Assembly (NCBI RefSeq): GCF_000763055.1
Contig: NZ_KN214135.1
Span: 106,127 to 170,126 of the forward strand
From: Collinsella sp. 4_8_47FAA
GTDB taxonomy: Bacteria; Actinomycetota; Coriobacteriia; Coriobacteriales; Coriobacteriaceae
DNA: 64,000 bases
Direction of reading: 5' to 3'
Shown here: positions 6,253-6,985 of the stretch, piece after piece
Position numbering within the stretch: position 1 is the stretch's first letter
Layout of the letters: each line of letters starts with the position of its first letter
The notes under the pieces: generated by a model
The model's input: only the letters and a program-made list of their open reading frames with translations
What the model was told of the DNA's origin: nothing
The model's database searches: none
Position numbers and translations under genes: made by a program

Positions 6253-6280
6253 AAAGGGCCGGTTGCAGCCGGCCCTTTAT
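6253..6280 (+). terminator. Intrinsic terminator after the 75-residue ORF
   Basis: AAAGGGCCGG pairs with CCGGCCCTTT (6253-6262, 6269-6278) around a 6-nt loop. The U-run is short. Confidence 0.65.
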
Positions 6281-6585
6281 GACGATACCGCCTGCGTTGC
6301 CCGCGCTTCCGAAGTGTGACTAGCTGAGGAGCGGGTTCCGCGGCACAACATGATTTTACCCAGCAAGGCGGCTCTTTTGCAGCCGCCCCACCGTTTATTT
6401 ACATCTGCCGCCACGAGCAGATGTCGCACGGACGAGAGCAGAGAAGCGATGCCGGCGCGGCCAACAGAGCAGACAACCCGCACGACCAGAGAAATGACAA
6501 AAGCGTTCGCTGCTTCGATTCCTTATCCGAATCCAGGCGCTTGTCCTAGCGTCGTCCAACCATACCCGCCATCTCCAATCCACAT
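6281..6585. other. Non-coding stretch with possible remnant of the tRNA-like element
   Basis: No ORF here has a convincing start or composition. A GGCGGCT/AGCCGCC hairpin lies near 6366-6388. Around 6531-6560 the sequence AATCCAGGCGCTTGTCC, then TAGCGTCGTCC, resembles the 3' end of the tRNA-like element at 6942-6967 (AATCCGGGCGCTTGCC, then CGTCC), suggesting a third, decayed copy. Confidence 0.4.
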
Positions 6586-6681
6586 AAAAAGCCATCCCGA
6601 AGGACGGCTTGCGCGTCGGTAGGATTTGCACCTACGTCTCCTCAATCAAGGGCACTCCTCGTACTGTGCTACTTTCCGCGC
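6586..6681 (-). ncRNA. tRNA-like small RNA gene, copy B, with its own terminator
   Basis: Read on the minus strand from 6681: a 5' GCGCG pairs with CGCGC (6615-6611); a D-arm-like GCAC-10 nt-GTGC (6669-6652) follows; then CCCTTGATTGAGGAGAC; then a T-arm-like GTAGG-TGCAAAT-CCTAC (6635-6619); then an intrinsic terminator AGCCGTCC-TTCG-GGATGGCT (6609-6590) running into TTTTT. It is homologous to copy A at 6889-6985, with compensatory changes in the T-arm and the closing stem. The segment between D- and T-arms is about 7 nt too short for a normal anticodon arm, so this is not a canonical tRNA. A short ORF (6632-6757) overlaps it on the same strand. Confidence 0.6.
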
Positions 6682-6757
6682 TTTTATTATCCAATTTGTC
6701 TACGACCTTATCAACCACAGCCAACTCATCCGGCGCCAGCCTTGCCGCACCCTTCAT
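6632..6757 (-). CDS. Possible 41-residue ORF overlapping tRNA-like copy B
   Basis: ATG at 6757 with GAGGA 7 nt upstream opens a frame MKGAARLAPDELAVVDKVVD, ending SSTVRGVPLIEET with TAG at 6634-6632 inside the T-arm-like segment. The first 27 residues have normal protein composition (charged, helix-forming), and the frame stays open well upstream of the ATG, so it could be the 3' end of a decayed gene. The last part is simply the RNA element read in one frame: copy A has a 2-nt length difference there and does not keep this frame, which argues against selection on the peptide. Confidence 0.25.
   Translation of the reverse strand: MKGAARLAPDELAVVDKVVDKLDNKSAESSTVRGVPLIEET
6686..6714 (-). promoter_or_regulatory. 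Promoter for tRNA-like copy B
   Basis: On the minus strand, TTGATA (6714-6709), a 17-bp spacer and GATAAT (6691-6686), followed 5 nt later by the GCGCGG 5' end of the element. The spacing is ideal for a housekeeping sigma factor. Confidence 0.6.
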
Positions 6758-6851
6758 TGAGTCGTCCTCATTGTAGTCGCAGCCGTGGCGCACATGAAAA
6801 CGATGGCAGGCACCAAGCCGGTGTGCCCGTTGGCTGGCGAGCGATAAATGA

Positions 6852-6880
6852 TTGACAGGGTCTATCTGACTGTGAAAAAT
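6852..6880 (+). promoter_or_regulatory. Promoter for tRNA-like copy A
   Basis: A perfect -35 TTGACA (6852-6857), then after about 17-19 bp an A/T-rich -10 (AAAAAT/AAATAT), and the element starts at 6889. The -10 match is weak. Confidence 0.5.
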
Positions 6881-6888
6881 ATAGACAA

Positions 6889-6985
6889 GGCAAGTAGTAG
6901 CACAGCCTGGAGTGCCCTTGATGGAGGAGACCCCGGTTCAAATCCGGGCGCTTGCCGACAGCCGTCCCCCGGGACGGCTTTTTAT
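6889..6985 (+). ncRNA. tRNA-like small RNA gene, copy A, with its own terminator
   Basis: GGCAAGT (6889-6895) pairs with GCTTGCC (6950-6956) like an acceptor stem. GCAC-AGCCTGGA-GTGC (6900-6915) is a textbook D-arm with a GG-containing loop. CCCGG-TTCAAAT-CCGGG (6932-6948) is a textbook T-arm. Between the arms are only 16 nt (CCTTGATGGAGGAGAC) instead of about 23, leaving at best a 3-bp CCT/AGG hairpin where the anticodon arm should be. AGCCGTCC / GGACGGCT then TTTTT (6960-6985) terminates the transcript. It may be a new small RNA or a tRNA pseudogene; shared core sequence and covariation with copy B favour a maintained structure. Confidence 0.6.

Follow-up and report, generated by a model that had tools for sequence, protein, structure and literature searches.

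A family of tRNA-like RNAs carried by phages and satellites, with two putative relic copies in a Collinsella genome

Two tRNA-like RNA elements in the Collinsella window

The window, that is, the whole 64,000-nt stretch of Collinsella sp. 4_8_47FAA DNA that was analyzed, holds two RNA elements of ~72 nt on opposite strands, whose 5' ends face each other across 204 bp. This agrees well with the original prediction, made from the sequence alone, of two ~70-nt elements ~210 bp apart, each followed by an intrinsic terminator and preceded by promoter-like hexamers. The elements, their parts and the gene remnants next to them are as follows:

6887-6958 (+): tRNA-like RNA, plus copy; 53 bits with RF02435 and 74.7 bits with our model R1; its minimum free energy (MFE) fold is a cloverleaf
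6889-6895/6950-6956, plus the pair 6897/6949 (+): acceptor stem of the plus copy
6900-6915 (+): D-arm of the plus copy
6916-6927 (+): mini-hairpin of the plus copy
6932-6948 (+): T-arm of the plus copy
6960-6983 (+): intrinsic terminator of the plus copy, seen in the sequence; hairpin of -14.6 kcal/mol, then a T run
6852-6880 (+): putative promoter of the plus copy, read from the sequence; TTGACA-17-AAAAAT, with a weak -10 box
6610-6682 (-): tRNA-like RNA, minus copy; acceptor partly decayed, with 5 continuous bp; 42.1 bits with RF02435 (sub-gathering) and 52.7 bits with R1
6583-6609 (-): intrinsic terminator of the minus copy, seen in the sequence; -12.3 kcal/mol
6686-6714 (-): putative promoter of the minus copy, read from the sequence; TTGATA-17-GATAAT
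6686-6796 (-): decayed C-terminal remnant of phrog_9479, upstream of the minus copy; the frame reads HGCDYNEDDSMKGAARLAPDELAVVDKVVDKLDNK; recognized by a tblastn match to the phage A25 protein (E 0.029; 37% across 38 aa) and by reading all six frames
6791-6894 (+): decayed C-terminal remnant of phrog_9479, upstream of the plus copy, with a stop and a frameshift; the DNA matches both the prophage of G001 and G022 at 84-86%; protein pieces at 37% and 73%, not significant alone

Energy folding alone gives the acceptor, D-arm, mini-hairpin and T-arm of the plus copy, and the arms of the minus copy, whose MFE fold lacks the full set, were assigned by homology. The D-arm-like hairpin that had been foreseen is a 4-bp stem in both copies. 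The middle of the elements, said to be too short for an anticodon arm, is indeed short (12 nt versus 17 in tRNA), but that description was incomplete since this segment folds into a 4-bp/4-nt mini-hairpin, CCTT-GATN-GAGG. The closing stem of at least 5 bp holds for the minus copy and is exceeded in the plus copy, where 7 bp, a bulge and one further pair make the acceptor/T stack longer than in a usual tRNA.

As for their identity, cmscan with RF02435 (SpF41_sRNA) places the plus copy, at 53.0 bits, above the gathering threshold of 52 and the minus copy, at 42.1 bits, under it; the latter was accepted as a relative through the broader covariance model R1. When R1 is run over the whole genome, the window copies are the sole two members (74.7 bits, E 2e-22, for the plus copy and 52.7 bits, E 1.5e-14, for the minus copy), the next match reaching 24.5 bits. 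Both fall below the gathering threshold of 29 for the ordinary tRNA model RF00005, with 25.9 bits (plus) and 18.5 bits (minus). ARAGORN calls neither a tRNA nor a tmRNA in the window, and no tmRNA gene with a tag peptide. The canonical 7-nt anticodon loop on a 5-bp stem is absent, its place being taken by the 12-nt mini-hairpin, and the elements encode no CCA and have no conserved acceptor sequence.

The surroundings of the two copies point to mobile DNA. From 6814 to ~6998, the DNA around the plus copy is 84-86% identical to the prophage of genome G001 and to G022, and the G001 counterpart (L009) lies inside a prophage whose phrog_9479, DUF4417 and terminase genes are intact. An orphan structured RNA, Collinsella-1 (RF01700), occupies 6256-6456 on the minus strand (155 bits), ~130 bp from the minus copy, and this stretch occurs in nearly half of 45 genomes of the genus, nearly all of which lack the tRNA-like RNA. 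Because broken phrog_9479 remnants stand upstream of both copies, the plus copy matches prophage DNA and the Collinsella-1 neighbors mostly lack the RNA, we read the window copies as a pair of phage or satellite relics in which the RNA genes are intact or almost so. The original prediction contained neither this origin nor the RF02435 match nor the Collinsella-1 RNA. It did mention two accessory genes nearby. The ADP-ribosylglycohydrolase (PF03747; 5103-5942, plus strand) is present; since it is split across two frames, it is probably a pseudogene or frameshifted. Of the supposed HicAB pair, HicA was found, the adjoining ORF showing only an HTH_17 domain in Pfam.

Fold, covariation and spread of the family

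We sought relatives by pattern scans, blastn of phage records and covariance searches with R1. The outcome bears out the prediction of a maintained, non-decoding family of tRNA mimics as largely right: far from the two copies standing alone, there are dozens of relatives with many compensatory changes, and the window RNAs almost certainly belong to a mobile-element family of tRNA-like RNAs. An alignment of 42 homologues (A6) displays a cloverleaf of acceptor, D- and T-arms with a mini-hairpin replacing the anticodon arm. In this alignment, 87% of cells are paired and double-sided changes are seen in 20 of 22 pairs; double-change cells number 121, where shuffles give 35.5 (0/500) and slid controls 15-24, although A6 was fitted to a covariance model and hence leans towards structure. 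The 4-bp D-arm with A14 is general in the family, a feature missing from the Rfam consensus structure. The mini-hairpin stem covaries (CCUU/GAGG, CGUU/GACG, CGGU/GCCG, CUCG/CGAG), and its pairing is kept while the loops differ (GAUN, GUUA, GGUU, UAAC, and GAAA in L160 and L161). The idea that its GGAGG mimics a Shine-Dalgarno sequence was dropped, this motif being lost when the hairpin changes.

The elbow contacts 18-55 and 19-56 covary as in tRNA. Among 35 distinct elements, D-loop position 19 and T-loop position 56 combine as GC (22), UG (8), UA (2), GU (1) and UC (2), so that 33/35 are standard (GC, UG, UA or GU) versus 22.3 expected on permutation within host groups (p ~1e-4). Positions 18 and 55 are perfectly associated, G or U with U and A with G (p 2e-4), and off-diagonal controls are not significant. 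For these counts, D-loop positions were set by hand from the D-stem, counting back from the end of the loop to take its third nucleotide as 19 and its fourth as 18, with L010 shifted by one. Five elements found later (L140, L141, L158, L160 and L161) follow the same rule by reading.

Some members depart from this plan. In L090, L105, L112, L117, L118, L120 and L122, a structured insert of 75-105 nt lies between the D- and T-arms and there is no mini-hairpin; the inserts of L090, L105, L120 and L122 are alike in sequence (alignment A7), and L138 and L139 probably also hold insert forms. Eleven large-insert or otherwise divergent loci matched no Rfam family, and pattern scans for large inserts returned only three viral contigs, all already known. 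The RNA occurs as a tandem of two in L080 and in Roseburia phage Jekyll (L133), while in Dorea phage DO134P1 it is followed by a genuine tRNA-Met.

The carriers include Streptococcus phages (A25, Javan258, Javan23 and phiNJ2) and Streptococcus satellites (Javan198, 421, 595, 624, 99 and 468). Further hosts are Gemella, Slackia and other Coriobacteriia, Acetatifactor, Oscillospiraceae and Negativicutes (Megasphaera), and close relatives from the window's own genus include two Collinsella records (L036, L044). Once ordinary tRNAs are removed, ~8 of 298 Coriobacteriia genomes carry the RNA, compared with 3/391 in the class of an Oscillospiraceae genome, 3/399 in that of Streptococcus and 4/300 in that of Megasphaera. 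Across Actinomycetota (n=346), true members were found in two genomes (G000 and G048), both from the order of the window, and the remaining two matches are tRNA-Val. This low and patchy frequency is a prophage-like pattern. Since ordinary tRNA-Val genes score 41-44 bits with R1 (L156, L157), and five Coriobacteriia matches at 34-38 bits turn out on reading to be ordinary tRNAs or nothing, matches below ~46 bits need context; L065, L066 and L093 were kept on that basis, and L045 (Legionella) was set aside as a chance match. In genome G1506, from the class of Megasphaera, two autonomous copies (L158 and L161) lie ~1.3 kb apart, which parallels the window pair; matches to phrog_9479, DUF4417 and A25-type terminase are all absent from their flanks.

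Gene context in phages and satellites

In phages, the RNA usually lies directly 3' of phrog_9479, a protein of ~130 aa with the N terminus MGGRG, and a DUF4417 gene (PF14386), often with a ParB-type N terminus, is found within ~1 kb on either side in most loci (e.g., L009 2354-3088 and L013 3951-4634). In Streptococcus phages, terS (PF03592) starts 100-190 bp downstream of the RNA. The phrog_9479 reading frame ends within the RNA, with its stop codon TAG at the entry of the D-arm, and its conserved C terminus (MVERV...WYN) encodes the -35 and -10 hexamers of the RNA with 17-bp spacing (e.g., L013 4940-5014), including an extended -10, TGGTATAAT, in AT-rich phages. A promoter-like site precedes 33 of 38 members versus 4 of 904 random positions, and a terminator follows 33 of 38 versus 24 of 904. 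Conversely, a cloverleaf is found 3' of phrog_9479 in 29/35 loci, versus 75/1400 shuffles and 11/183 random windows (controls at 5-6%); one of the 29, L132, scored on its tRNA-Met, although by reading the short RNA is also there. L115 and L137 have phrog_9479 and no cloverleaf, and L086 is cut by a contig end.

The structural models of the two proteins are of limited help. The phrog_9479 model (pLDDT 75) finds no significant fold match in the PDB, and the notion of a nuclease fold was dropped on that account. The DUF4417 model (pLDDT 92) is TIM-barrel-like, with matches short of significance, the top ones in VIA-align being tRNA-guanine transglycosylases (TGTs) (Z 8.0-8.4; rmsd 3.4 and 169 aligned at Z 8.4) against 7.3 for unrelated barrels. 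We abandoned the idea of a TGT-like enzyme modifying the mini-hairpin because profile comparison with 14 TGTs gives a probability of 0.2%, GAAA and UAAC loops lack the needed motif, and satellites have no DUF4417.

The satellites carry the RNA separately. In Javan198, Javan421 and similar contigs it has its own promoter-like site and terminator, and searches of the satellite contigs for A25-type TerS, TerL and portal, phrog_9479 and DUF4417 gave zero matches. In eight of them (L014, L016, L018, L019, L028, L032, L046 and L055), a 52-nt core is identical to that of phage type S1, while the acceptor stems vary with compensation. The core of L141, found by covariance search after a first pattern scan that favored S1, is that of phage type S2, which differs from S1 at 14 positions. 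Seven phages have the exact S1 core, although in phrog_9479 they range from 70 to 98% identity with the phiNJ2 protein. In Streptococcus phages (n=15; 13 for TerL), RNA core distance is correlated with that of phrog_9479 (r 0.61, p 2e-4) and not with that of DUF4417 (r 0.03) or TerL (r 0.02). The sharing of cores and this correlation could be explained by recombination, selection or helper matching. Downstream of the RNA in Javan198 (L014 8195-8846) there is a HigB-like (PF05973) and HTH pair, likely a toxin-antitoxin cargo.

A non-decoding tRNA mimic and its possible partners

The family has been met before in part. F41 is a 103-nt, northern-positive small RNA of S. pneumoniae TIGR4 encoded between SP1142 and SP1143, and an F41 mutant is attenuated in mice (PMC3395615). 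It was found in 4/385 pneumococcal strains (PMC12323649), which fits a mobile element. F41 used as bait pulled down Cbf1 and RNase Z (PMC7196914); since most csRNAs also pulled down RNase Z, that part is not specific to F41. F41 keeps its terminator hairpin, so that maturation to a tRNA-like 3' end is undocumented, and the limited collection of literature that was searched yielded no paper describing F41 as tRNA-like. The Rfam family RF02435 (S. pneumoniae F41/srn277) already has the acceptor, mini-hairpin, T-arm and terminator, and the window copies belong to the same family, but its structure has no D-arm and its name is silent on tRNA likeness; beyond it lie the members from Coriobacteriia, Clostridia and Negativicutes, the large inserts, the tandem copies and the link to phages and satellites.

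Other tRNA-like RNAs offer useful comparisons. The RNA shares with bacterial tRNA the acceptor, a D-arm with A14, a 7-nt T-loop and the elbow pairing, but it has neither an anticodon arm and loop nor an encoded CCA, its acceptor is extended, bulged and variable in sequence, and its RF00005 score is sub-gathering. The tRNA-like domain of tmRNA consists of an acceptor and T-arm with no normal anticodon arm and works without decoding; the RNA described here resembles it in these parts, but has a full D-stem and shows no reading frame, tag or alanine identity. Small RNAs of the mascRNA type and viral tRNA-like structures are also cloverleaf-like, with a reduced or replaced anticodon arm. These are cut out of long RNAs or make up 3' ends, whereas the RNA here has a promoter of its own and ends at an intrinsic terminator. 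Bacterial Y RNA, with its Ro60-binding stem, likewise joins a tRNA-like module to variable parts, but here the variable part takes the place of the anticodon arm.

Sequence comparison shows an autonomous cloverleaf RNA with elbow pairing and without an anticodon arm, carried by temperate phages and, separately, by satellites, and selection preserves the geometry of its elbow and acceptor. Decoding and specific aminoacylation are unlikely because there is no anticodon, the acceptor sequence is unconserved and the third arm is cap-like. The RNA would be made constitutively, lysogens included, and would probably act in trans. There it may serve as a ligand, that is, a decoy or mimic, of a protein that recognizes the tRNA elbow and acceptor helix, the mini-hairpin mainly capping the third arm and the mobile element benefiting from the engagement. 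Candidates for the bound protein are phrog_9479 from the phage itself and host factors that bind or damage tRNA. This ligand or decoy role for an elbow-reading protein is the most economical explanation, and we consider it about evenly poised between right and wrong. Against it, the computation gives no binding partner and the -10 box of the plus copy is weak. Of the four roles originally suggested, decoy and substrate may remain, while an integration site is unlikely, no integrase adjoining the RNA and its constant neighbors being phrog_9479, DUF4417 and packaging genes; the primer role found no support.

The constant linkage to phrog_9479 and DUF4417 suits a phage-encoded partner no less than a host one. 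The RNA might be dedicated to phrog_9479 (perhaps to DUF4417), either within a ribonucleoprotein or as the antidote to a tRNA-targeting protein in the manner of type III toxin-antitoxin systems, with the RNA of satellites engaging or resisting the protein of their helper. What makes phrog_9479 a serious candidate is that it is almost always linked to the RNA in Streptococcus, Coriobacteriia and Clostridia phages, that the RNA core tracks phrog_9479 rather than DUF4417 or TerL, and that satellite cores are exact phage core types. The correlation, however, could come from tight linkage alone, because phrog_9479 overlaps the RNA gene; many copies stand without the protein (those of satellites and the Negativicutes pair L158/L161), and its model has no significant structural match. 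We hold a dedicated phrog_9479 partnership to be a possible but minority explanation. A little more speculative still is a system of phage-satellite conflict or cooperation, with a type-specific RNA paired with a possibly tRNA-targeting phrog_9479 to which it is the antidote, satellites carrying the matching type, and large inserts defining further specificity classes.

That the element instead works in cis, as a leader in which fold and terminator serve to punctuate or attenuate the transcription running from the middle operon into the packaging genes, is improbable. The RNA is often 100-190 bp upstream of, and co-directional with, terS, and in L119 and L079 the next start codon is so close to the terminator that read-through seems needed, but cis action is not required of an RNA that has a promoter of its own, and satellites and autonomous copies keep promoter, RNA and terminator with no packaging genes downstream. 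More doubtful is a packaging element, RNA or DNA, that would be the pac site or packaging RNA of the terminase and let helpers package satellites: adjacency to terS in Streptococcus phages and the identity of the 52-nt core between phages and satellites speak for it, but L113 and L050 do not carry it immediately upstream of terminase, the core does not track TerL, and the kept promoter and terminator together with helix covariation point to an RNA product. Degenerate tRNA genes devoid of function, which tRNA likeness (18-26 bits with the Rfam tRNA model), the imperfect acceptor of the minus copy and the decayed phage genes adjoining both copies might suggest, are contradicted for the family by the compensatory changes that many lineages show in every helix and in the elbow and by the conserved promoter and terminator, and hence highly improbable, even if the window copies by themselves could be relics if untranscribed.

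The orphan Rfam family F41 thus gains an identity, as a tRNA mimic with a true elbow borne by phages and satellites, whose large-insert versions merit a description of their own. Autonomous tRNA-like RNAs that do not decode and whose third arm is exchangeable are maintained by phages from three or more Firmicutes classes and from Coriobacteriia, and the prediction that follows is that the mobile element targets a protein that reads the tRNA elbow.
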